From NCBI GenBank assembly GCA_029762625.1, contig JARVGI010000012.1:1-59548 (forward strand): 59,548 nt of DNA. Reading direction: 5' to 3'. Positions within the stretch are counted from its first letter, which is position 1. Every line of letters begins with the position of its first letter. The position numbers and the translations under genes were made by a program. The notes beneath the pieces are model-generated. The model was given only the letters and a program-made list of their open reading frames with translations. It was not told the origin of the DNA and did no database searches. Positions 3,041-28,300 of this stretch are shown here, piece after piece. The DNA comes from Methanomicrobiaceae archaeon (GTDB lineage: Archaea; Halobacteriota; Methanomicrobia; Methanomicrobiales; Methanomicrobiaceae).

Positions 3041-3113
3041 TTAGGCATCCTCCTGCGTGCCACATGCACAAGTAATACAAACCCTTTTTGGTTCAATTAA
3101 CAGTGGGTAACGG

Positions 3114-3124
3114 CTTTATTAAAG
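3114..3124 (-). promoter_or_regulatory. Candidate TATA box for the mtr operon
   Basis: On the minus strand the sequence reads CTTTAATAAAG, an archaeal TATA-like element about 75 bases upstream of the mtrE start, giving a predicted start of transcription near 3090 and a leader of roughly 50 bases. A second AT-rich candidate (CATAAATC on the minus strand near 3150) cannot be excluded. The whole mcrA-mtrE gap is otherwise AT-rich compared with the neighbouring genes. Confidence 0.45.
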
Positions 3125-3210
3125 GTTTCGAAAAGATGGCCGTGATTTATGGGAATTTCTGAAAAATGCGGCAGAATTTAAGATTTACGGTGTTGTGATT
3201 TGAGTTAGCG

Positions 3211-3217
3211 AAAAAAA
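3211..3217 (-). terminator. Candidate poly-U terminator after mcrA
   Basis: A run of seven T on the minus strand lies 14 bases past the mcrA stop codon. Archaeal termination commonly uses short U-runs without a strong hairpin, so this is a reasonable end for the mcr transcript; no clear stem precedes it. Confidence 0.45.
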
Positions 3218-3230
3218 GTTTGTGTTGGGG

Positions 3231-4937
3231 TTAGCGGGCCGGGATGATGAGCGAACGCTCGCCAGCCGGGGTGAACTCGCGGATTGCACCTTTTGCGAAC
3301 TCGCGGCGGGGCTCGGCGAAGTCGAACTTGAGCGAGGGGTCGGCGAAGCAGACGCTGACACGCGGGTCGTAGCAGAACGCGTCGCCACGTCCGTAGTGTG
3401 CGCCACCGACGATAGCGGCGTACTCTCCCTGGTGACCCACGTTCATCGCGTAGTTCGGGTAGTTCGGTCCGCGGAGTTCTCCGATCAGACCCTCGTCGGG
3501 CCGGATGGCCAGCGAGTTTGCGGAACCGCACTGGTCCTGCAGGTCGTAGCCGAAGAAGCCGAGACGCGACCAGCCCTCCTTGTGCAGGAGCATGGAGAGG
3601 TACCATCCGTTCAGACCGGCGTTGGAGTTGCCGGTACCGATGGAACAGGTCAGACCGGATGCGGCGGCGATGACGCCTGCACGCTGGGAACCGCCGAAGT
3701 GGTCCTCCATCAGGGTCGGGAACTGCTCGTACTGCTCCATGGCGTTGAGGGTAACCTCGGTGGCGAGATCGTTGACGACCTCCTGGGTTGCCTTCACGCG
3801 GTCGCCAACGGCCGGGTTGGCCCAGTCGACACCGTACTTGTCCTTCGCGTAGTCCATACCGTAGTAGGTGTACTCGTCGAGGATGTTGTCGGTGTACGCT
3901 GCGGTCGCATACTGGGTGAAACCGACACCGCCGGACATGTAGGAACCGAGCCAGATCTGGTCGAAGAGCATGGTTCCGGCACCGACGACCTCGAGGGAGG
4001 CGCGGGCGGGGTCCTTCGGGTACTTCCGGTTGGCCTGGACGATATCGGAGAAGAGGCCGAACTTGATGCCACCGGGCTCGTTCGGACCGCGGGCGCGGCG
4101 AGCGGGCAGGATGGAGGCCATCTGCACGACACCGGCGTGCTTTGCGGCGTAGGACAGGTCGGCGACTGCCGCCTCTCCGGCGCACATACGGTAGGCACCG
4201 ATGTAGGACATCCCGATCTGCATGGCAGACCAGCGGCTGGTGGTTCCACCATCACAGGTCCTCGAGACGATGGTCGGGATGTGGATTGCCTGCCAGAGGC
4301 CCTTGCCGACGGCGGCCTTGAGGGCGGCGCCCTGGTCTGCCGGGAAGAGCTTGTCGATGTTGAGCAGGAACTGGGGCTCGATGTCGTCGGCGATCGCGTC
4401 GTCGCCGGTAAAGACCTTGACGTAACAGTCATCGACCACACCGGGGTGGGTCTCCACCATGTGCTCCTGCACGACGGCTGCACCGGGCATGGCGTGGTTC
4501 AGGACGTGGAGGTACTCGTTGATGGTCTCCGGGGTGACCTCTTTTCCGAGGCGCTTCTGCAGGGTCTGGTGGGCAAGGTCCATGCCGACGATAACCGTCC
4601 TGCGGATGTCGTCCCAGAACTGCTGCATGGCAGAGTTGTTGACGAAGTGCAGGTCGTCGCCCTCGACAAAGACGCCGGACTGGCTGACCTGGTAGGTCAT
4701 CAGCTGGCGCTGTCCGAGCGGGATACCACCGAGGTGGCAGCGTACGGGCTCGTACATGGGGATGCCGCGCTGCATTTCAACAGCCTTGCTTGCCTTGATG
4801 AACTCCTGCTTGCGGGGAGACTGGGCAAGCCCGCCGAAGCGGTAGTAGGTGGTGTTCACTGCCTCGGGATCCTCACCCTGGAACTTCTCTTTCAGCGAGT
4901 CAAGGAACAGTTTTTGTGCTCTCTCAATTTTTCCCAT
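3231..4937 (-). CDS. mcrA: Methyl-coenzyme M reductase subunit alpha
   Basis: The catalytic alpha subunit of methyl-coenzyme M reductase, which makes methane from methyl-CoM and coenzyme B using Ni-F430. The 568-residue product shows the family hallmarks: [15 protein letters not shown], the AAKHAGVV and [14 protein letters not shown] stretches that hold the methyl-His and methyl-Arg sites, GSQRAG (methyl-Gln region) and GYDLQDQCG (thioglycine/methyl-Cys region); modifications are inferred from the family. The frame also opens with a GTG at 4946, but the ATG at 4937 (MGKIERAQ) is preferred because an AGGAG box lies 9 bases upstream. Last gene of mcrBDCGA. Confidence 0.98.
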
Positions 4938-4942
4938 CTCAA

Positions 4943-5704
4943 TCACTCCTTGGGCATGAATCCATATTTAGTCCTCAGCGAGTGAATACGCTGGACATAT
5001 TCGACGTATTCCTGGTCATCACGGTAGGGGACACCGACAAGCGAATGGAAGATGGTCGAGTGCGCCTTGAGCCATCCCTCATCCATCGGCTTGCCGACGT
5101 TGACTTCACGGTCGAGGGGCTCGCCGATCTGGTTCTTGACATACTTGACGTTGCCGTCGCCCGTGAGCAGACAGCGCTGGAGCATGTCGAACATCATCCC
5201 GTCCTCTGCAAGGCGGAGAGAGTGCCCGTGCACGGTAGCACCGCGGACGCTGCAGCGTGCGGGGTCGAACATCTCGGTCTCGAGGAGGAACTTGGAGTAC
5301 GCCTCGAGGTCGCGCTCGCGGCACTCCACGATCTGGCGGCCGGAGAGCGTACCGGGGTCGATGCCGCGGAAGCGGTAGCTGTAGCTATAGGTCCTCTGGT
5401 AGGGCTGGCTCGGCGCGTTGAACATCGAGTCTGCAAACTGGATGTAGCGGACGCGGTCGCCTGCCTTGGCCCCCTCGGTCGGGGTGACGATCTTGCGGAT
5501 CGGACAGTCGGGTTCGCCTGCCTCGGCAAGCGGCGGGTGCGCGGTGGGGTACGCTGCACCCGGAGCGCGGTGCCCGAGAATCAGCACGACGTCCTCGTCG
5601 GTGACATCCCGAACTTTCTCAAGCTTGTTGTCGGGGTTCATCTGTTTGCGCCGGTTTTCGGCGACAGTCGAAGTCCCGGGTCCATATTGGGGTGTATATG
5701 CCAT
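4943..5704 (-). CDS. mcrG: Methyl-coenzyme M reductase subunit gamma
   Basis: Gamma subunit of methyl-coenzyme M reductase, 253 residues, part of the (alpha-beta-gamma)2 enzyme that lines the active-site channel. It starts [20 protein letters not shown] and contains the conserved LILGHRAPG and [20 protein letters not shown]-type stretches. The frame allows a TTG two codons earlier, but the ATG at 5704 follows a GAGGTGA box at proper distance. It is separated from mcrA by 5 bases, so the two are tightly co-translated. Confidence 0.97.
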
Positions 5705-5716
5705 TTTCAATTCACC

Positions 5717-6340
5717 TCATTGTTTCATTTTCATAACACGATTAACTGCGGTAATGACTTCTGCCAGTTTTTCACGGGTCGGGGTCTGCCCGCGGGTGAT
5801 GCCGCTCACGATCTCCACGACCGTCCCCTTCGTTTTGACGTCTTCGGGGGCGGGCATGACCGTGGCGGTTTTGACGCCCACTCTGGCGAGATCCTCATAA
5901 TCGATCGGTACCTGCGTGACCACCACTGCATCGACATCGCAGTGTTCCAGGATGAACCTGACCTTGGCAACCACATGGGAGCGGACGTTACCGTGATGGA
6001 GAATCGCCACTTTGTGCTGTTCGATCTGGCGAATTTCCCTGTCGGTAAGGCCGAAATATGCTCCGGTCACTGCGGCTGCCGTGGCCGTGCCCGGGGGAAC
6101 TCCTGCACCGGCATTGAGCACCAGCGTACTGACGCTGAACTCGACGCCTTCCCGGCGAAGGCCGGAGGTGATGTCGCAGACTGGTTTTGTCACGTGGCGT
6201 CGCCCCGGCGACATGGCCACCACGATCACATCGGGGTAGCGGCACTCGGAGATCGTGCCCCGCTGTGCAAGGCCTCCTCCTTTGCCCATCCCCATGGACT
6301 CGCGGCAGTCAACCACCTGGGTAACGCGACCGATCGGCAT
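5717..6340 (-). CDS. mcrC: Methyl-coenzyme M reductase operon protein C
   Basis: McrC, 207 residues, is not a structural subunit of the reductase; the family is known as part of the ATP-dependent machinery that reductively activates the Ni-F430 centre. The sequence opens MPIGRVTQVVDCRESMGMGKGG, with the conserved Cys and glycine-rich segment, and ends in a basic tail. It is one base from mcrD and lies between mcrD and mcrG as usual. Confidence 0.95.
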   Translation of the reverse strand: MPIGRVTQVVDCRESMGMGKGGGLAQRGTISECRYPDVIVVAMSPGRRHVTKPVCDITSGLRREGVEFSVSTLVLNAGAGVPPGTATAAAVTGAYFGLTDREIRQIEQHKVAILHHGNVRSHVVAKVRFILEHCDVDAVVVTQVPIDYEDLARVGVKTATVMPAPEDVKTKGTVVEIVSGITRGQTPTREKLAEVITAVNRVMKMKQ

Positions 6341-19700: not shown

Positions 19701-20660
19701 ATGATAGTGCTTACTCCCGACGAAATCAGGCAGCGATACGGCACACTCTTCTCGAAGAAGTTTCTGGTCATGGCCGATGAGGCCGCAGGGATCGCAGAGA
19801 TCATCGAGCACTGCAGCCACCGCGGCACCATCGAATGGGATGCCATGAACCGCAGGCGTGCGGGCGGTGCCGCCCGGTCGATTTCCGTCGAGGGAACGGC
19901 CATGTCGATCGTCGCCGCCATCGGCTCCTACCCCGTGCACTTCGGCGCGGCCGGATCGGAGATCGGCGGACAGGCCCTCGAAGGCGTCGAGATCCTCGGC
20001 GAGGACGAGATCGCCACCACGTGGGCGGGCATCGCCGGGGCGGGGGTGGGCGTCGCCGCCTGCCTCCCGCAGGCGCCGGGCGTGCTCAGGGCCGAGTACC
20101 CCTCCGAAGAGGACATGAAGATCGGCGGGGCGCGGACCAACCGGGTGCGGATCATCTCGCCCCGGTACGAAAAGATCACCATCGGCATCGACGACACCGA
20201 CACAAAGGAGGAGGGTGCGACCTGGGTGCTGGCGCTGCAGTGCGCCGAACAGTGTCCGGTGGAGGGCGTGGAGTACCTCAATATGCGCCTCATCCAGCTC
20301 AACCCGGCGGTTCCCAAGAAGACCACCAACTGCGTCGGCTCCGCCCTCAATTTCGCGGTCCGCCCCGGATCGGTCGACGCCCTGCTGGACTACGTGCGGG
20401 AGTATATCGAGACCAATGCGGTGAGCGACGATGCCGGCATCGCCGTGCACCGGGGCATCGCCCTGCCTGACGATTCCCCCTTCCTCGCACGCATCAAGAC
20501 CGATATCGTCAGCATCGAAGAGGCACAAGCCGAGGCGTCGCGGCTCGGGATCCGGTACATCGACTCGGCAGCGAGAAAAGGGCGTATAGGAGCCCTCGGG
20601 TCGGTGCTCTGGGGCAACCGCGGCATCGAGGCGGCAGGACTCTATGGAGAACATACCTGA
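19701..20660 (+). CDS. Methanogenesis marker 11-type protein, first paralogue (IGIDDTDT domain)
   Basis: A 319-residue soluble protein of unknown function. Its central ITIGIDDTDTKEEGATWVLAL segment (about residue 155) matches the Asp-rich IGIDDTD motif shared by methanogenesis marker protein 11 and the archaeal tRNA-agmatidine synthase TiaS. It lacks the zinc ribbon and OB domain of TiaS, so a tRNA role is not indicated. It is clearly homologous over most of its length to the next gene, which overlaps it by 17 bases. Likely arises from an old duplication. Assignment to the exact family is by recall, not by search. Confidence 0.7.
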   Translation: MIVLTPDEIRQRYGTLFSKKFLVMADEAAGIAEIIEHCSHRGTIEWDAMNRRRAGGAARSISVEGTAMSIVAAIGSYPVHFGAAGSEIGGQALEGVEILGEDEIATTWAGIAGAGVGVAACLPQAPGVLRAEYPSEEDMKIGGARTNRVRIISPRYEKITIGIDDTDTKEEGATWVLALQCAEQCPVEGVEYLNMRLIQLNPAVPKKTTNCVGSALNFAVRPGSVDALLDYVREYIETNAVSDDAGIAVHRGIALPDDSPFLARIKTDIVSIEEAQAEASRLGIRYIDSAARKGRIGALGSVLWGNRGIEAAGLYGEHT

Positions 20661-21519
20661 ACCCTACACGATCCGCTACCCCGAGATCGTGGCCATTGCG
20701 GCGGAGGACGCCACCCGCGTGGAGCTGGTCGAGCAGTTCGACTGCGTCGGCGGGGCGATGTGGGCGAAGTACCACTACAAAAAAAGCCCGCTCGTCCGGT
20801 CGGTGCGGACGGTCGGGGCGACCTCGCGCTACCTCCTCGACCCCGGGGAGGAAGACCTCGCCCTCGTGGGATCGCACTTCCCGGCGGGGATCTCCGGGGT
20901 GCGCGTCACGGACGACGAGATCATGGTCTCCTACCGCGGGATGGGGGGAGGGGGCGTCGGTGCGAGCATCTGCCGGTCGCTCGCACAAGGCGTGCTGCGC
21001 TGCGAGACCGACCCGTCGGGCGGCGGCAGGGTCGCGGGATCGACGGTCTGGCTCCCCCGCCGGCAGCGGGTGCTCATCGGCATCGACGATACCGACACGC
21101 CCGAGGAGGGAGCGACATGGACGCTCGCCCACAACATCGCCCGGGCGGTGGAGGACGACCGCTCCCGCTACCTCTCCCACACCATCGTCCAGCTCTTCCC
21201 GGTAGCCTTCAGGACCAAAAACTGTGTCGCTATCGTCTGCGAATTCGCCTCCACCCAGCCCGATCAGCTGGCCGACCGCTTCCAGGCGTACCTCGAGCGC
21301 TACACCCTCTCGGAGGACACCGGCATGGCGGTCTTCTGCGGCTTCGACCCGTCGGCGCTGGACGGGTTCGGCTGGTCGGTCAAGCAGGGCGAAGTGGATC
21401 CCGCCTCGATCGACCGGGTGAAAGGCCTCGTGGATATCCGCATTGCGGGACGGGGCGCGGTCGGGGCGATCGCGGCCATCCCGTTTTTCACGCGCTACGA
21501 AGAGGCGCTCTCGCTATGA
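20644..21519 (+). CDS. Methanogenesis marker protein 11
   Basis: A 291-residue protein with the same fold signature as its upstream neighbour: VLIGIDDTDTPEEGATWTLAH near residue 140, preceded by a glycine-rich MGGGGVGASICRSLAQGVLRC stretch and followed by HTIVQLFPVAFRTKNCVA. The N-terminal EQFDCVGGAMWAKYHYKKSP is, as I recall, typical of methanogenesis marker 11, a protein found only in methanogens. The Asp cluster suggests metal/nucleotide binding, but the reaction is unknown. It overlaps the upstream gene by 17 bases and the radical SAM gene by ATGA. Confidence 0.75.
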   Translation: MENIPEPYTIRYPEIVAIAAEDATRVELVEQFDCVGGAMWAKYHYKKSPLVRSVRTVGATSRYLLDPGEEDLALVGSHFPAGISGVRVTDDEIMVSYRGMGGGGVGASICRSLAQGVLRCETDPSGGGRVAGSTVWLPRRQRVLIGIDDTDTPEEGATWTLAHNIARAVEDDRSRYLSHTIVQLFPVAFRTKNCVAIVCEFASTQPDQLADRFQAYLERYTLSEDTGMAVFCGFDPSALDGFGWSVKQGEVDPASIDRVKGLVDIRIAGRGAVGAIAAIPFFTRYEEALSL

Positions 21520-22487
21520 ACTGGACACACCTCAAAGCACGCCTTCTCTCCGCCGGCACGGTCCGGCTCACCGGGGAGCCCGCGGACCGCTTCGTGGAGC
21601 GGTCCCGTGCGGGACCGGATGCGGGAGGCGAAGGCTCGGTCTTTTTTACCCCGGGAGACCGCCGCAGGGTCAGGCTGTCCCTCGACCCGGCGAGCGACAT
21701 CGAGCTGGTGCACCGGGGCGAGGGGAGGGCAGAGCTCTGCATCGGCGGCGAGGTCGTCGCGGGAAGGCTTGAGCCGAACGGCCTCCACTGCCCCCGGCAG
21801 GCCTACATCACCGTCAGCGAAGGCTGCATCTTCCGGTGCACCTACTGCCCGGTCCCCTCGCAGGAGGCGCGGGTGAAGACGCCGGACGAGGTTGCGGCGC
21901 TCGTGGAGCGCGTCCTTCCCGAAATCGACGCCATCTCGCTCACCAGCGGCGTGGTGGGAAGTGTCGAGGAGGACGAGAGGCGTGTGCTCGAGGTGGTCCG
22001 GCGCGTGGCCTCCTTCGGCACACCCGTCGGGGTGTCGATCTATCCGCTCGCGGAGACACCCCGGCGCCTCCACGCCCTCGGCGTGGCGGAGGTGAAGTTC
22101 AACGTGGAGACGGCCACCGACGCCCTCTTCAGGCGGCACTGCCCGGGGCTCGACCGGGAGGCGATCATGCACGCCCTGCGGGATTCGGTGGACCTCTTCG
22201 GCAGAAACCACGTCTTTTCCAACGTGATTCTCGGCCTCGGGGAGACGGACGAAGAGATGGAGCGCTGCATCGAAGAGCTCTGCGCCGCCGGGGTGATCCC
22301 GGTGGTGCGCCCGCTCACCCCGTCGGCCGGATGCGCAGGCTTCGAACGGCCGTCGGCGGCGCGGATCGAAACAATCTGCGCCGTCCACGCACGCCACCTT
22401 GCGCAGGCGGGGCTCGACCCCGCACAGGCGCTGACCATGTGCCCCGCCTGCACGGGCTGCGATCTTACGCCGGGGAGGGATGCATGA
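21516..22487 (+). CDS. Radical SAM protein of unknown substrate
   Basis: A 323-residue radical SAM enzyme. The cluster motif CIFRCTYC places cysteines at residues 104, 108 and 111, later than in most minimal family members, after an N-terminal 100-residue domain. A second cysteine set, CPACTGC (309, 312, 315), sits 8 residues from the C-terminus and could bind an auxiliary cluster. It is not the arginine methylase Mmp10 by length or motif. Start ATG overlaps the preceding stop; the stop overlaps the next start. Its position between marker 11 and the coenzyme B genes hints at a methanogenesis cofactor or protein modification role. Confidence 0.85.
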   Translation: MNWTHLKARLLSAGTVRLTGEPADRFVERSRAGPDAGGEGSVFFTPGDRRRVRLSLDPASDIELVHRGEGRAELCIGGEVVAGRLEPNGLHCPRQAYITVSEGCIFRCTYCPVPSQEARVKTPDEVAALVERVLPEIDAISLTSGVVGSVEEDERRVLEVVRRVASFGTPVGVSIYPLAETPRRLHALGVAEVKFNVETATDALFRRHCPGLDREAIMHALRDSVDLFGRNHVFSNVILGLGETDEEMERCIEELCAAGVIPVVRPLTPSAGCAGFERPSAARIETICAVHARHLAQAGLDPAQALTMCPACTGCDLTPGRDA

Positions 22488-23758
22488 ACGGAGAAGAGAT
22501 CCTCATACAGGCCCTGCAGCGGGCGTCGGACCGTGCGTATGCCGTGCCGGGCTACCCGGTGACCCGCATCGCCGGGGGCGTGGCCGCGGCGGTTACGGTG
22601 AACGAAAAGGTGGCCCTCGAGTACGCCCTCGGCGACTCCCTCGCCCTCCGCCGGGCGGCGGTGATCGTGAAGAACGTCGGCGTCAACGCCCTCGCCGATC
22701 CGCTGGCAAACGCCACCACGCAGGGGCTCCGGGCCGGGGTGGTGGTGGTGGCCGGCGACGATATCGCAGTTGCCGCCTCCCAGAACGCACAGGACTCCCG
22801 TTTTTATGGCGAACTCGCCGAGGTTCCCGTGATCGAGCCGTCCGCGGCGACCATGGGGGCGGCGGTGGAGGAGGCGTTCCGGGCTTCAGAGGAATTCTCC
22901 CGCGTCGCCCTGCTCCGCATCACCCCCGCCGCTCTTGCCGGTGAAGCGGACGCCGCCTTCGCGCCGCCGTCCCGCGCCACCGGCACCCTCGCCGACCCCT
23001 CGCTCACCATGCGGGGACGGGTGGCGGCGGCAGCGCGGCGGACGACGGCGATGTTTGCGTGGGCCCGCGCCTCATCCCTCAACACCATCGCCGGCGGTAC
23101 GGCCGGGGTGGGCGCCTGCCCCGGCGACTCGAGGGTGGTCACGGTCTACCCGCCCCCGGGCGACCGCTTCGAGGACGTGGCCGAACTCGGACGCCCCTTC
23201 TTCGCCGAGCACGCCGGCCTCCTCCCCCCGGCGGCGGAGACGGAGCCGGAGAGCATGGCCGGGCGGGGCTACGTTCGCACGCTCTGCCCCACCTGCCCCT
23301 ACGCCCTCCTCTTTGCCCGCATGAAGGAGAAGGGCATGACGGCCGTCTGCGACATCGGGTGCTCCCTGCTCGCCATGAACCCCCCCTACGGGGTGGGCAT
23401 CGCCAGCTACGGCCTCGGCTCCTCGGTGGCCGTCGCCGCGACGAGCACGCGCGTGTCCCTCACCGGCGACTACGCCATGCTGCATTCGGGCATCAACGCC
23501 CTCATCGACATCACGGAAAAAGGGCTGCCCCTGCTCTGTATCGTGTTGAAGAACAAAAAAATGGGGATGACCGGCGGGCATCCGGCCCCGGACGTCGCCC
23601 GCTACCTCGGGTGGGCGGACCCGGTCGTGATCCCGGCGGAGGACGGGGAGGCGCTCGACCGGCACCTCGCCGTCCCCGGCCACCCCCGTGTACTGCTGAT
23701 CGAGGGCTGCTGCCCCGAAGGAGAAGAGCATGAAACCGTGGAATGTGGAAATCTGTGA
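22484..23758 (+). CDS. IorA-like thiamine-diphosphate enzyme lacking the ferredoxin domain
   Basis: A 424-residue relative of indolepyruvate:ferredoxin oxidoreductase alpha subunit. Matching features are NEKVALEYALGDSLALRRA and SQNAQDSRFYGELAEVPVIEPS in the N-terminal half, then LCPTCPYA (C268, C271), CDIGC (C289, C293) and the thiamine-diphosphate stretch from TGDYAMLHSG (about 327) to NKKMGMTGG (about 357). Normal IorA is over 600 residues and ends in two [4Fe-4S] motifs, which are missing; no iorB is adjacent. It overlaps aksA by 29 bases. A role as a 2-oxoacid decarboxylase, such as for 2-oxosuberate, is an inference from context. Confidence 0.8.
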   Translation: MNGEEILIQALQRASDRAYAVPGYPVTRIAGGVAAAVTVNEKVALEYALGDSLALRRAAVIVKNVGVNALADPLANATTQGLRAGVVVVAGDDIAVAASQNAQDSRFYGELAEVPVIEPSAATMGAAVEEAFRASEEFSRVALLRITPAALAGEADAAFAPPSRATGTLADPSLTMRGRVAAAARRTTAMFAWARASSLNTIAGGTAGVGACPGDSRVVTVYPPPGDRFEDVAELGRPFFAEHAGLLPPAAETEPESMAGRGYVRTLCPTCPYALLFARMKEKGMTAVCDIGCSLLAMNPPYGVGIASYGLGSSVAVAATSTRVSLTGDYAMLHSGINALIDITEKGLPLLCIVLKNKKMGMTGGHPAPDVARYLGWADPVVIPAEDGEALDRHLAVPGHPRVLLIEGCCPEGEEHETVECGNL

Positions 23759-24860
23759 CGTCACCCTGCGTGACGGGGAACAGACACCCGGCGTGTCGTT
23801 CACCTGCGTGGAGAAAATGGACATCGCCTCCGCACTCGATGAGATCGGTGTCGAGGTGATCGAGGCGGGCTTTCCGGTGGTCTCCGGGAATGAAAAGGAA
23901 TGCGTGCAGAATATTGCCAGGATGGGGCTCGACGCCAGAGTGTGCTGCCTGGCCCGGGCAAAACGCGAGGATGTCGAGTGCGCCATCGACTGCGATGTCG
24001 ACATGGTGAGCATCTTCATCGCAACCTCGGACCTGCACATACGCCACAAGTACCGCCGCCCGCGGGAGGAGGTGCTCGAGGGGGCGCTGGCAATGGTGCA
24101 ATTCGCCGCGGATCACGGCCTGCAGGTGCGGTTTGCGGCTGAAGACGCCTCCCGCACCGACATCGCCTTCCTCAAAGAGGTCTACACCCGCGGCGCAGAG
24201 CACGGAGCATGGTACGCCAGCTTCGCGGATACGGTGGGCTGCCTGACCCCGCTCGAGATCGCCGCCGTCACCGAAGACCTCTACCGCAGCACCCCCCTCC
24301 CCCTCTGTATCCACTGCCACAACGACATGGGGTGCGCCAGCGCCAACACCATCACCGCCGCGGCGTCCGGCGCCTTCCAGCTGCACACCACCGTCAATGG
24401 CATCGGGGAGCGGGCGGGCAATGCCGCCCTTGAAGAGGTGATCGTCGCCCTCCACATGAAAGGCGGCGTCGACCGCTACGATCTCTCCCACCTGCACGGC
24501 ATCTCGGCGATGGTCAGCCGGTACTCGGGGATCTCCGTCGCCAAGACCAAGGCGGTGGTCGGCGACCACGCCTTCGCCCACGAAAGCGGCATCCACATCG
24601 CCGCCATCCTCGAAGACCCCGCAACCTACGAGTACATCCCCCCGGCCCTCGTGGGCGGCGAGCAGTGCTTTATCCTGGGCAAACACACGGGACGGCGGGC
24701 GCTGGAGCACATCGCCCGGAACATGGGCGTCGACCTCACCGATACCCAGATCCGCTGGGTGCTCCACCGGGTCAAGGAGATTTCCGAGGGGAAGTGCTGC
24801 ATCACCCCCGAGATGTTTCTCGGGATCATCAGGCAGGCACAGGAAGCCGTGGTGGCATGA
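23730..24860 (+). CDS. aksA: Homocitrate synthase family protein AksA
   Basis: A 376-residue DRE-TIM metallolyase that condenses acetyl-CoA with 2-oxoglutarate and its longer homologues in the chain elongation leading to 2-oxosuberate for coenzyme B. DVTLRDGEQTPGVSF holds the catalytic Arg-Asp, and CIHCHNDMGCASANT the metal-binding HxH; the C-terminal part has HESGIHIAAIL. No C-terminal allosteric domain is present, unlike LeuA. The ATG has AAGGAG before it and overlaps the upstream gene by 29 bases. The aksD, aksE and aksF genes downstream support AksA over isopropylmalate or citramalate synthase. Confidence 0.9.
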   Translation: MKPWNVEICDVTLRDGEQTPGVSFTCVEKMDIASALDEIGVEVIEAGFPVVSGNEKECVQNIARMGLDARVCCLARAKREDVECAIDCDVDMVSIFIATSDLHIRHKYRRPREEVLEGALAMVQFAADHGLQVRFAAEDASRTDIAFLKEVYTRGAEHGAWYASFADTVGCLTPLEIAAVTEDLYRSTPLPLCIHCHNDMGCASANTITAAASGAFQLHTTVNGIGERAGNAALEEVIVALHMKGGVDRYDLSHLHGISAMVSRYSGISVAKTKAVVGDHAFAHESGIHIAAILEDPATYEYIPPALVGGEQCFILGKHTGRRALEHIARNMGVDLTDTQIRWVLHRVKEISEGKCCITPEMFLGIIRQAQEAVVA

Positions 24861-26071
24861 GCACGCTTGCGGAGCGGATCCTCGGCGCACCTGCGGGCAG
24901 CTTCGTCGACCGTCCCGTGGACCGGGCCTTCGTGCACGACGGGACCGGGGTGCTGACCCTCGAGGCATGGCGGCGCATGGAACGCGACCGCCTCGCCTGC
25001 CCGGAGCGCCTCTCCATCCTCTTCGACCACATCGCCCCGGCAAACAACAGCACGACCGCGGCCCTGCAGGCGGAACTGCGCACCTTTGCCGCCGAACAGG
25101 GGCTGCACTTCTCCGATGTCGGGGGCGGGATCTGCCACCAGCTGATGAGCGAGGGGATCGTGCGCCCCGGCGAGGTGGTCGTCGGCGCCGATTCGCACAC
25201 CTGCACCCTCGGCGCGTTCGGCGCATTCGCCACCGGCGTCGGTGCGACGGACATGGCGGCGATATGGGCCAGCGGGTCGACGTGGTTCCGGGTCCCCGCA
25301 ACCATCGGCGTCCACCTCGACGGAACCCTGCAGGGTGCTGCCGAGGCAAAAGATATCGCCCTCGACTACGTCCGCAGGATCGGCATGGACGGCGGGACCT
25401 ACATGGCGCTCGAGTTTCTCGGCGAGGGGGTGCGGGATCTCTCCATGGAGAGCCGGCTCACCATTGCCAACATGGCGGTGGAGACCGGGGCGAAGGCCGG
25501 GATGTTCTATGCCGATGATACGACGGCACGCTCCCTCGCAGCGTACGGCATCCACACCGCACCGCAGGCCATCGAGGCGTGTCACTATGATCGGGAGATC
25601 ACCCTCGACCTCGACGACCTCGTCCCCCTCGTCGCCGCCCCGCACCGGGTGGACAACGGGCGGCCCGTCGCCGAGTTCGAGGGGATCGCACTCGACGAGG
25701 TCTTCGTGGGCACCTGCACCAACGGCCGGCACAGCGATCTCGCGCGGGTTGCCGCGATCGTCGCGGGCAGGAAGGTCGCCGTGCGGACCATCGTCGTGCC
25801 CGCCTCGCGGGCCGTGCTCCTGAGGGCGGCACAGAGCGGGGTGCTCACCACCCTCATCGAGGCGGGGTGCACGATCGGGCCCCCCGGGTGCGGGCCCTGC
25901 CTCGGCGCCCATATGGGCGTGCTGGGGGAGGGCGAGGTGGGGCTCTCCACCGCAAACCGCAACTTCCGCAACCGGATGGGGGTGGGCGCGGACTACTACC
26001 TCTGCTCGCCCGCCACCGCCGCCGCCAGCGCCCTCCGGGGCGCCATCACCGCACCGGAGGGATCCGCATGA
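24857..26071 (+). CDS. aksD: Homoaconitase large subunit
   Basis: A 404-residue aconitase-family large subunit that, with AksE, isomerises homocitrate-type intermediates in coenzyme B synthesis. [4Fe-4S] ligands lie in VGTCTNGRHSD and IGPPGCGPCLG; substrate stretches include DHIAPANNSTTA and GADSHTCTLGAFGAFATG. The frame is open upstream, but the ATG overlapping the aksA stop (ATGA) gives the family length of about 400-420. Large subunits of homoaconitase and isopropylmalate isomerase are alike; the specificity call rests on the small subunit and the operon. Confidence 0.9.
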   Translation: MSTLAERILGAPAGSFVDRPVDRAFVHDGTGVLTLEAWRRMERDRLACPERLSILFDHIAPANNSTTAALQAELRTFAAEQGLHFSDVGGGICHQLMSEGIVRPGEVVVGADSHTCTLGAFGAFATGVGATDMAAIWASGSTWFRVPATIGVHLDGTLQGAAEAKDIALDYVRRIGMDGGTYMALEFLGEGVRDLSMESRLTIANMAVETGAKAGMFYADDTTARSLAAYGIHTAPQAIEACHYDREITLDLDDLVPLVAAPHRVDNGRPVAEFEGIALDEVFVGTCTNGRHSDLARVAAIVAGRKVAVRTIVVPASRAVLLRAAQSGVLTTLIEAGCTIGPPGCGPCLGAHMGVLGEGEVGLSTANRNFRNRMGVGADYYLCSPATAAASALRGAITAPEGSA

Positions 26072-26541
26072 TCCTGCAGGGCAGGGCCGTCTGTCTGGGC
26101 GCCGATGTCGACACCGACCTGATCATCGCCGGGCGCTACCTGCGCACCAAAGACCGCCGCGTCTGGGCCGAGCACGTCTTCGAGGACCTCGACCCCGCCC
26201 TCGCGGCGAGAATGGAGGGAGCGGTCATTCTCGCCGGCACCAACTTCGGGTGCGGGTCCTCGCGGGAGCAGGCGCCCGTCGCCCTCAGGGAGGCCGGGGT
26301 GGCGGGCGTGATCGCGCCTTCGTTCGCCCGCATCTTTTTCCGCAACGCCATCAACGTCGGCCTGCCGGTGGTGGAGTGCGGCGGGGTGCGGTGCAGCAAC
26401 GACGCCCCCGTCTCCTTCTCCCCCGACGAGGGATGGGTGGAGGCGGGCGGGGAGCGCTGCACCGCAACGCCGCTTTCCGGCCGCATGCTCGACATCCTCG
26501 CCCACGGCGGCCTCGTGGAGTACTGGAGGGCGCAGCAATGA
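26068..26541 (+). CDS. aksE: Homoaconitase small subunit
   Basis: A 157-residue swivel-domain subunit partnering AksD. GADVDTDLIIAGRYLRT near residue 10-25 contains the YLRT loop known to mark homoaconitase small subunits (isopropylmalate isomerases have YLVY-like loops), and GTNFGCGSSREQAP is the family signature. This makes coenzyme B synthesis the likely pathway rather than leucine synthesis. The ATG has CCGGAGG upstream and overlaps aksD by 4 bases; its stop overlaps the next start by ATGA. Confidence 0.93.
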   Translation: MILQGRAVCLGADVDTDLIIAGRYLRTKDRRVWAEHVFEDLDPALAARMEGAVILAGTNFGCGSSREQAPVALREAGVAGVIAPSFARIFFRNAINVGLPVVECGGVRCSNDAPVSFSPDEGWVEAGGERCTATPLSGRMLDILAHGGLVEYWRAQQ

Positions 26542-27341
26542 TAGTTCCCGCCCACTGCAAGGAGGTGGGCTACGCGTCGTCGAAACCGCTGGGAGATGTC
26601 GTCTATTTCCTGAGCAGGTACCTGATCCACGAGACCGGCGACGGGTTCGAGGTCCTCGCGGTGCACGCCGGCGAGGACGACGGGGGCATGATGCGCCCGG
26701 TCCGGGAGACACGGGTGCTTGCCCGGGCAGACGAGGTGGCGGTGCACCCCGAACCGGTCAACCTCTTCAACAGGGCCGATCTCGTGCTGCGTGCGGCGCA
26801 GAGCGGGAGACGGTGCACGATTTTCCGGGGTCCGGACGAGCACATGACCTTCGTGCTCGACCCCGACCCGGAGGCGCTCTGCCGCGTCCACGTCTACGAT
26901 GCGGGGCCCCCCTCCCCCTCCCTCTCGCGCACCATCGAAGCCCTCGAGGCGACCGGGCTGTTCGGGGAGCTCATGGCCGTCTTCGACCATCATGTGGCCG
27001 ACATCGCCGCACTGGACGCAGACGTCTTTCCCTGCCGGGCCTCCGGCTACGCCCGCACCCTCGATATGGACCGCCCCTCCCCCGGCGAGCGGATTGCAGG
27101 GTGCCTGACGGCCCGGCAGCTTGCCGGTGAAAACTACGGAGATAGCTACGCATTTGTCAACATCTGTCCCCTCGATGCCGCCGACAGAGAGCCCTTCATC
27201 GCACGGTGCTGCCGCAGCGAGCGGTGCGGGGTGGGCACCCACCACGGGCTCTTCGGCGCCGCCGTCCACTGGGGGGCGAGCCCGAAGCAGATCGCCGATG
27301 CGGTGTTCGCTCTCGTGGCGCAGTGGGGGGACCGGGCATGA
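26538..27341 (+). CDS. Unrecognised protein inside the coenzyme B operon
   Basis: A 267-residue soluble protein that I do not recognise with confidence. It starts MIVPAHCKEVGYASSKPLGD, has a central FDHHVADIAALDADVFPCRA stretch and a C-terminal CPLDAADREPFIARCCRSER followed by CGVGTHHGLFG, giving several Cys and His that could bind metal or act in sulfur chemistry. No membrane segment or signal peptide is seen. Its start overlaps aksE (ATGA) and its stop overlaps aksF, so it is co-translated with both; this makes a coenzyme B-related role likely but the step is not assigned. Confidence 0.8.
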   Translation: MIVPAHCKEVGYASSKPLGDVVYFLSRYLIHETGDGFEVLAVHAGEDDGGMMRPVRETRVLARADEVAVHPEPVNLFNRADLVLRAAQSGRRCTIFRGPDEHMTFVLDPDPEALCRVHVYDAGPPSPSLSRTIEALEATGLFGELMAVFDHHVADIAALDADVFPCRASGYARTLDMDRPSPGERIAGCLTARQLAGENYGDSYAFVNICPLDAADREPFIARCCRSERCGVGTHHGLFGAAVHWGASPKQIADAVFALVAQWGDRA

Positions 27342-28300
27342 AGGTCGCCGTGGTGGAGGGCGACGGCATCGGCCGCGAGGTGATCCCGGTCGCCCGCGAC
27401 GTGCTCGCATGCGTCCGCCCCGACATCGAGGTCTTCGAGGTGGAGCTCGGCTACGCCCGGTGGGAGCGGACCGGAACCGCGTGCGACGATGCCGACCTCC
27501 ACGACCTGAAATCGGCCGACGCCATCCTCTTCGGGGCCATCACCACGCCCCCCGACCCTGACTACCGGAGCGTCCTCCTGCAGCTGCGAAAAGGGCTGGA
27601 CCTCTATGCGAACCTCAGGCCAGTGAAGGGGGAGGGCTTCGACATCCTCATCATCCGGGAGAACACCGAGGGGCTCTATTCAGGGATCGAGTGGACAGAG
27701 GCGGACCGGGCCTGCACGCTCAGGGTAATCACCCGCCGGGGGTGCCGCCGGATCGCGCGGTTCGCCTGCGAGCGCACACGCTCCCACCTGACCGTCGGCA
27801 ACAAGGCCAACGTGCTCAAGTCCGACGTGCTGTTCCGGGACATCTGTCTCGAAGAGGCGGCACGAGCGGGGGTGCCCTGCACCGCGCAGTTTATCGATTC
27901 CCTCGCGCTCGACATCCTCATGCGCCCCTCCCGCTACGACTGCATCGTCACCACCAACATCTTCGGCGACATTCTCAGCGACGTGGCGGCCTTCCTCGTG
28001 GGCGGCCTCGGGCTGCTGCCGTCTGCGAATATTGGAGACCGGCATGCCCTCTTCGAGCCGGTCCACGGCAGCGCCCCCGATATCGCCGGGAGGAATATCG
28101 CCAACCCCATCGCCGCCGTCCGGAGCGCAGGCCTGCTGCTCGAGTATATCGGCGAGGGTGAGGCGGCGGCGCAGGTCGAGGAAGCAATCAAACACACGCT
28201 TGCCGCGGGCATCACAACGCCCGACATGGGCGGCTCCGCAACCACCGGTTCGTTCGGGAGCGCGCTCCTCGCCACCCTGCGCACGCTGAGGAGGGGCTAA
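27338..28300 (+). CDS. aksF: Homoisocitrate dehydrogenase family protein AksF
   Basis: A 320-residue beta-decarboxylating dehydrogenase that oxidises (homo)n-isocitrates to 2-oxoacids one carbon longer in the route to 2-oxosuberate. Seen are VVEGDGIGREV at the N-terminus, the substrate loop RKGLDLYANLRPVK, IIRENTEGLYSG, and YDCIVTTNIFGDILSD with the metal-binding Asp, then the coenzyme-binding EPVHGSAPDIAG. The ATG at 27338 overlaps the preceding gene. A leuB role is possible on sequence alone, but the neighbouring YLRT-type aksE argues for AksF. Confidence 0.9.
   Translation: MKVAVVEGDGIGREVIPVARDVLACVRPDIEVFEVELGYARWERTGTACDDADLHDLKSADAILFGAITTPPDPDYRSVLLQLRKGLDLYANLRPVKGEGFDILIIRENTEGLYSGIEWTEADRACTLRVITRRGCRRIARFACERTRSHLTVGNKANVLKSDVLFRDICLEEAARAGVPCTAQFIDSLALDILMRPSRYDCIVTTNIFGDILSDVAAFLVGGLGLLPSANIGDRHALFEPVHGSAPDIAGRNIANPIAAVRSAGLLLEYIGEGEAAAQVEEAIKHTLAAGITTPDMGGSATTGSFGSALLATLRTLRRG

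Follow-up and report, generated by a model that had tools for sequence, protein, structure and literature searches.

A truncated IorA-like thiamine enzyme encoded with aksADEF as a candidate 2-oxosuberate decarboxylase of coenzyme B synthesis

We analysed a 59,548-nucleotide (nt) stretch of DNA from a Methanomicrobiaceae archaeon (contig JARVGI010000012.1 of assembly GCA_029762625.1), referred to here as the window, to which all coordinates refer unless a locus is named. It encodes P0001, a truncated homologue of IorA with a thiamine pyrophosphate (TPP) domain, which we propose, at a probability of roughly 70%, to be a 2-oxosuberate decarboxylase that yields 7-oxoheptanoate for coenzyme B synthesis in class II methanogens (Methanomicrobiales, Methanosarcinales and Methanothrix) and in the anaerobic methanotrophic archaea ANME-2. 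The proposal draws on homology, residue conservation, gene adjacency, distribution among genomes and shared absence with the aks genes. The candidate is tied to the product of AksADEF by its adjacency and distribution and, most of all, by the shared absence; we assign it a decarboxylase role because decarboxylation is the next known step for that product. An earlier note on this DNA had suggested such an IorA-derived enzyme for a step with no assigned enzyme; on the latter point it agrees with passages in three papers which describe the steps after 2-oxosuberate as lacking a known enzyme (PMC10384328, PMC3087415, PMC12068725), and the titles and abstract openings among the literature matches listed assigned no 2-oxosuberate decarboxylase. 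The survey described here, the shared absence and the coexistence of the candidate with ComD all argue for the suggested role, making the protein a strong candidate for this step.

Shared absence with aks is the evidence that fits a link to coenzyme B best. Seven window proteins were joined as one query and run on 13 chosen genomes. All seven sister genomes in this set which carry the candidate also carry aksA, aksD, aksE and aksF at 55–68% identity, and the candidate and such aks genes were both absent from four genomes: G152 (99% complete), G225 (97%), G022 (91%) and G418, a metagenome-assembled genome without a completeness figure. G152 and G225 contain only aks paralogues at 38–44% identity, apart from an extra aksA-like gene at 56% in G152, which the positive sister genome G177 has as well, besides its cluster aksA. 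At the corresponding locus both genomes read, with no contig break, through two genes of the methanogenesis marker protein 11 type (MMP11a and MMP11b), a radical-SAM gene and a DUF7714 gene, so that what they lack relative to the window order is exactly the candidate plus the four aks genes. These two genomes share a genus code with Methanocorpusculum UBA424, G301 and G422 having contig coordinates in common; genes for homocitrate synthase, homoaconitase and the homoisocitrate step are reported to be enriched in environmental Methanocorpusculum (PMC10035134). The G022 locus keeps ftr-MMP11a-DUF7714 and lacks the canonical MMP11, and no match to aks or the radical-SAM gene was found in this genome at E 1e-10. 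Over 5.2 kb its mcr region matches a named Methanomicrobium at 94.4% identity, and our guess is that it represents Methanomicrobium mobile. This species is listed as requiring coenzyme B in a review whose text terms its growth factor unknown and which cites Kuhner 1991, a work whose title states that 7-mercaptoheptanoylthreonine phosphate replaces the M. mobile growth factor (PMC10658910). Two further genomes were excluded from the losses because they may simply contain gaps: G307, whose aksF piece lies at the end of a contig, and G016, at 84% completeness. For the Methanocorpusculum and Methanomicrobium genomes without aks and the decarboxylase (loci L253, L254 and L255), dependence on coenzyme B or a precursor is predicted.

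In the window the candidate lies within a run of genes on one strand:

19701..20660, + strand, second, divergent MMP11-type gene (TIGR03280, 183 bits, below cut-off)
20644..21519, + strand, methanogenesis marker protein 11, MMP11 (TIGR03280, 321 bits, above the cut-off of 255.8)
21516..22487, + strand, radical-SAM gene, with a 4-nt ATGA overlap with the candidate (PF04055; MSMEG_0568/LipS2-like below cut-offs)
22484..23758, + strand, TPP decarboxylase candidate P0001, truncated IorA homologue (open frame, 424 amino acids)
23730..24860, + strand, aksA, homocitrate synthase family (family-level matches; aks name from the operon)
24857..26071, + strand, aksD, homoaconitase-type large subunit (above subfamily-model cut-offs, below the HacA_Meth cut-off)
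26068..26541, + strand, aksE, homoaconitase-type small subunit (library matches; query taken from 26065)
26538..27341, + strand, DUF7714/XcbA-like gene between aksE and aksF (PF24830, 286 bits; NF052538, 63.7 bits, below the cut-off of 150)
27338..28300, + strand, aksF, homoisocitrate dehydrogenase family (below AksF-model cut-offs)

The aks names therein reflect family-level matches together with the operon, AksF and AksD scoring below the methanogen-specific equivalog cut-offs. Frame coordinates bear out the 29-nt overlap between the 3' end of the candidate and the start of aksA (23730) which the earlier note had described. The candidate does not head the operon as had been stated there; it sits inside the run, after the two MMP11-type genes and the radical-SAM gene, which overlap successively by 4 to 17 nt, and ahead of aksA, aksD, aksE, the DUF7714 gene and aksF. 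Internal TGA codons, which are reported in many relatives, looked like recoding, a reading we rejected in view of frames that end in the aksA overlap: the stop lies inside this overlap in 10 of the 19 loci L010–L028 and likewise in eight of the nine remaining, reverse-strand loci, the ninth (L012) having no aksA on its contig piece. An mcrA pattern match was also found near 3.9 kb of the window on the opposite strand.

We compared the surroundings of the candidate across 72 distinct loci, many of which are related by descent and most of whose Methanomicrobiales members have flanks of 1.5 kb only; an aks gene, called as the best BLAST match to the window's own genes and thus possibly including other paralogues, lay within 250 nt in 33 loci, MMP11 in 29, and either of them in 62. 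Within 5 kb, aks was found at 38 of the 72 loci (L279 excluded), and aks or MMP11 at 32 of the 36 loci with at least 5 kb of flank on both sides. The candidate goes with these genes and not with iorB. Three arrangements with aks were found. In Methanomicrobiales the order is radical-SAM gene, candidate, aksA; elsewhere the candidate stands tail to tail with aksA, followed by aksD (f29) or by aksD-E-F (f7, f14, G450, G452); and in f24 (locus L274:4991-10241, genome G150) it closes an aksA-D-E-F-decarboxylase operon, with an ATGA overlap with aksF. The proteins of G150 appeared acidic by eye, possibly those of a halophile. The frequency of MMP11 beside the candidate, and the radical-SAM homologue which each of the 28 positive named genomes described below carries (E 1.2e-60 or better), would also be expected if the candidate served an MMP11 or radical-SAM function, such as MCR maturation, with the link to aks being secondary. 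We regard this as distinctly unlikely: G152 and G225 keep MMP11, the radical-SAM gene and DUF7714 yet have neither the candidate nor aks.

In the window's order, 91 of the 94 genomes listed carry the candidate (the exceptions being G152, G225 and G307), so its presence there is beyond chance, and among near relatives it was found in 38 of 40 genomes, the window's own included, the two without it being G016 and G022. We also searched 50 named genomes chosen from mcrA pattern matches (at least 119 stretches), counting as positive a profile match above 450 bits or a two-piece match of the short Methanomicrobiales form. Of those of the Methanomicrobiales/Methanosarcinales type 28 of 29 were positive, comprising 24 of 25 so named and all four Euryarchaeota archaeon records; three of these records match genomes of the window's phylum, either in sequence or in contig and coordinates, and the fourth, G452, was grouped only by the candidate gene and its neighbours. 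DUF7714 was present in all 28 positives, canonical MMP11 in 27 and ComD above its cut-off in 24.

The last of these counts bears on a possible role in coenzyme M synthesis, in which the candidate would be a sulfopyruvate decarboxylase replacing ComDE. The window's genome has no ComD and no ComE above cut-off, four more positive named genomes (G417, G422, G425, G449) lack ComD, and the nearby XcbA-family gene, although below cut-off, bears a coenzyme-M-type family name. Against this, ComD and the candidate coexist in most positives, the candidate is missing together with aks, and P0001 had no match to the ComDE models TIGR03845 and TIGR03846 at E 0.01. Furthermore, M. acetivorans lacking comDE is a coenzyme M auxotroph (PMC12068725), and a Methanosarcina genome (G409; M. 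acetivorans itself was not searched) carries the candidate. After the ComD and ComE searches we set this role aside as very unlikely. It should be noted that the window's genome may itself belong to a coenzyme M auxotroph or use a different route.

The best library match of P0001 was IOR_alpha (TIGR03336; E 3.1e-39), at 134.8 bits against a cut-off of 650.9; six further family members scored between 199.7 and 319 bits, all below that cut-off, and the full IorA of the same genome scored 828.2. PF02775 was matched at 36.5 bits, and an alignment of 39 members with the genome's IorA showed TPP-site residues common to both. The pyrimidine and TPP domains are thus IorA-like and kept, as had been claimed, and the claimed lack of an adjacent iorB also holds: the candidate's neighbours are the radical-SAM gene and aksA, and it is the separate full IorA of this genome (locus L056) which is adjoined by an IorB-type frame (best matches to IorB models, 196.9 bits, below their cut-offs). 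The further claim, that the [4Fe-4S] motifs are gone, stands for the C-terminal ferredoxin domain, since Cys 561-598 of IorA (eight cysteines) have no counterpart in the 39 family rows aligned and no ferredoxin motif occurs in the TPP-type family rows checked. It does not stand for the four cysteines predicted to bind the proximal cluster, C268, C271, C293 and C410, which share columns with their proximal-cluster counterparts in IorA, KorB and PorB in an alignment of 43 rows (43/43) and are conserved in 72 of the 73 rows of the family. The conserved residues, together with the invariant H334 (73/73 family rows), are as follows:

22604..22606, + strand, Glu41, predicted catalytic Glu of the pyrimidine domain (73/73 rows)
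23285..23296, + strand, C268-P-T-C271, first two predicted proximal [4Fe-4S] ligands (72/73 family rows)
23360..23362, + strand, C293, third predicted cluster ligand (72/73 rows; also in the 43/43-row alignment)
23465..23470, + strand, G328-D329, TPP/Mg site (73/73 rows)
23552..23554, + strand, N357, TPP/Mg site (72/73 rows; Asp in L274)
23711..23713, + strand, C410, fourth predicted cluster ligand (72/73 rows)

The loop reported to hold the proximal cluster of 2-oxoacid:ferredoxin oxidoreductases (OFORs) has the motif CXGC (PMC5020499).

By sequence the candidate is its own clade beside IorA: a tree of 71 rows separated 46 candidate-type from 25 full IorA sequences on one branch with a value of 100 in the SH-like approximate likelihood ratio test (SH-aLRT), this being a quick tree without bootstrap in which L274, L275 and L277 form long branches and nine rows, the window's included, have an odd letter make-up. 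The middle domain is much shortened in Methanomicrobiales, the window protein having 424 amino acids and those of the other lineages compared 484–555. Searched alone against solved structures with phmmer, P0001 gave only weak matches to unrelated nucleosidases; the family profile gave weak matches, mostly to TPP decarboxylases and OFOR subunits. A scan of viral contigs found no relative. With IOR_alpha as the best library match, the candidate could be read as a fragment of an ordinary indolepyruvate or aryl-pyruvate oxidoreductase lying near aks by chance. We consider this extremely unlikely given the separate clade, the full IorA with its IorB-type gene in the same genome, the three separate arrangements with aks and the shared absence.

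In the proposed reaction 2-oxosuberate, the end product of AksADEF, would be the substrate of the candidate. The ylide of thiamine diphosphate (ThDP), activated by Glu41, would add to the 2-oxo carbon, after which CO2 would leave, the enamine would be protonated and the C7 semialdehyde would be released. An acyl-coenzyme A (acyl-CoA) product would not be expected because no gamma partner is encoded beside the candidate; IorB is this partner, where CoA binds. The substrate, the product, the non-oxidative course and the presence of the cluster itself are all predicted. The proximal [4Fe-4S] cluster would probably be kept in most members as an inherited or structural feature.

The earlier step from a missing Fe-S motif to non-oxidative chemistry fails in that form, since the family does retain the cysteines of the proximal cluster, and locus L274 offers better ground. 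Its protein has P, N, S and a gap at the four cysteine positions and Asp in the Asn357 column, while the Glu and the GD are kept. This suggests that the cluster is dispensable to a member encoded with aks and so favours non-oxidative chemistry. A Sulfolobus OFOR needs neither the cluster nor CoA for non-oxidative decarboxylation (PMC5020499). A deep-branching member (L275; f25, genome G164; locus positions 3088-5857) has an iron-type alcohol dehydrogenase 37 nt away, which would point to an aldehyde product and possibly to an aldehyde-to-alcohol pair. The candidate could instead be a redox enzyme which decarboxylates 2-oxosuberate oxidatively and passes electrons via the proximal cluster to ferredoxin, the activated pimeloyl species being reduced or thiolated later. 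The near-universal cluster cysteines would suit such a course, and oxidoreductase activity is reported for two-subunit OFORs that have a single cluster and lack a ferredoxin domain (PMC5020499). We nevertheless judge it unlikely, as no gamma (IorB-type) gene adjoins the candidate and the L274 protein, encoded in an aks operon, has none of the four cysteines.

A number of observations weigh against a 2-oxosuberate decarboxylase, the main doubts being the retained cluster and the absence from other methanogens. Such wide conservation of the cysteines (72 of 73 rows) speaks for a redox role or else for a strong structural requirement, and their loss is known from one sequence of one assembly (L274), which is thin. 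The candidate was found in none of the 21 other named genomes, most of which are from methanogens also needing coenzyme B: five Methanobacteriales, two Methanothermococcus, eight of Methanomassiliicoccales type, Methanofastidiosum, Methanomethylicota, Nezhaarchaeota, two of Archaeoglobales type and a horse-faeces archaeon. Their stronger matches were IorA-length frames (at least 593 amino acids), the ferredoxin domain being checked in eight. The candidate is thus not shared by all organisms that make coenzyme B, and other methanogens must use something else. With regard to gene context, the neighbour is MMP11, with aks elsewhere, in most Methanosarcinales loci examined; no aks or MMP11 gene lies within 5 kb at L053, L277 and L278; the L279 neighbour scored as aksA is a 2-isopropylmalate synthase (NCBIfam); and the f25 member adjoins the alcohol dehydrogenase instead of aks. 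As to the losses, the positive Methanocorpusculum loci L239 and L258 are arranged otherwise than those of G152 and G225, with DUF7714 upstream, so a single clean excision is not proven, and the assignment of G022 to Methanomicrobium comes from one 5.2-kb match. Finally, an AlphaFold single-sequence model of P0001 reached a predicted local distance difference test (pLDDT) score of 37 and is of no use as support.

The neighbouring genes allow a wider and more tentative suggestion, namely that the cluster of MMP11, radical-SAM gene, decarboxylase and AksADEF approximates the whole coenzyme B pathway. We think it possible, if rather doubtful, that the TPP enzyme makes 7-oxoheptanoate and that MMP11 and the radical-SAM protein carry out late steps, which might be an ATP-dependent attachment of threonine, a phosphorylation or the introduction of sulfur. 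MMP11, a methanogen marker, has a TiaS-type kinase domain (PF22641), and both tandem genes of the window are TiaS-like; in most Methanosarcinales loci examined it is the canonical copy that adjoins the decarboxylase. Homologues of the radical-SAM protein were found at 34–35% identity in five of the eight Methanomassiliicoccales-type genomes and at E 7e-5 or worse in the seven of Methanobacteriales and Methanothermococcus. Among the genomes without aks, G418 lacks both canonical MMP11 and the radical-SAM gene and G022 lacks the latter; G152 and G225 retain both and might then import an intermediate rather than complete coenzyme B. The DUF7714/XcbA-like gene is present in all four, which makes a role outside the aks steps probable. 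In a Methanobacteriaceae locus (L269:3724-10216), genes of homoaconitase type, AksF-like and SufS-type cysteine desulfurase are lined up two frames ahead of MMP11 and may form a coenzyme B cluster of class I methanogens. At a Methanothermococcus locus (L268:6598-9936) two frames separate MMP11 from a KorB/PorB-like TPP gene.

Biological methane formation depends on coenzyme B, and so does anaerobic methane oxidation, which runs the route in reverse. A single gene which travels with aksADEF and is lost along with it opens the decarboxylation step to tests in a genetically tractable host, Methanosarcina acetivorans, and the candidate predicts which gut methanogens depend on neighbours for coenzyme B or a precursor. 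It would also be a case in which an enzyme of OFOR type seems to have become a simple decarboxylase.

Among known systems the candidate resembles IorA (TIGR03336) in its pyrimidine-middle-TPP order, in the Glu, GD and N of the TPP site and in the four proximal-cluster cysteines, but differs in having no ferredoxin domain or adjoining IorB, in the middle domain shortened in Methanomicrobiales, and in forming a separate clade far below the family cut-off. With StOFOR of Sulfolobus tokodaii it shares a single [4Fe-4S] cluster, predicted in the candidate, and the lack of a ferredoxin domain, whereas StOFOR has its TPP domain on a separate subunit and makes acyl-CoA; domain III of StOFOR is on the partner chain. 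This two-subunit enzyme is reported to be capable of non-oxidative decarboxylation (PMC5020499). The bifunctional POR/PDC of Thermococcales is likewise an OFOR-type enzyme that releases aldehyde (PMC4058850), although, unlike the candidate, it is a heterotetramer and needs CoA for both activities. The reaction proposed for the candidate is closest in kind to that of ComDE, a non-oxidative TPP-dependent decarboxylation of a 2-oxoacid for a methanogen coenzyme. ComDE belongs to a different TPP family without the cluster cysteines, however, and its ComD occurs alongside the candidate in 24 of the 28 genomes.

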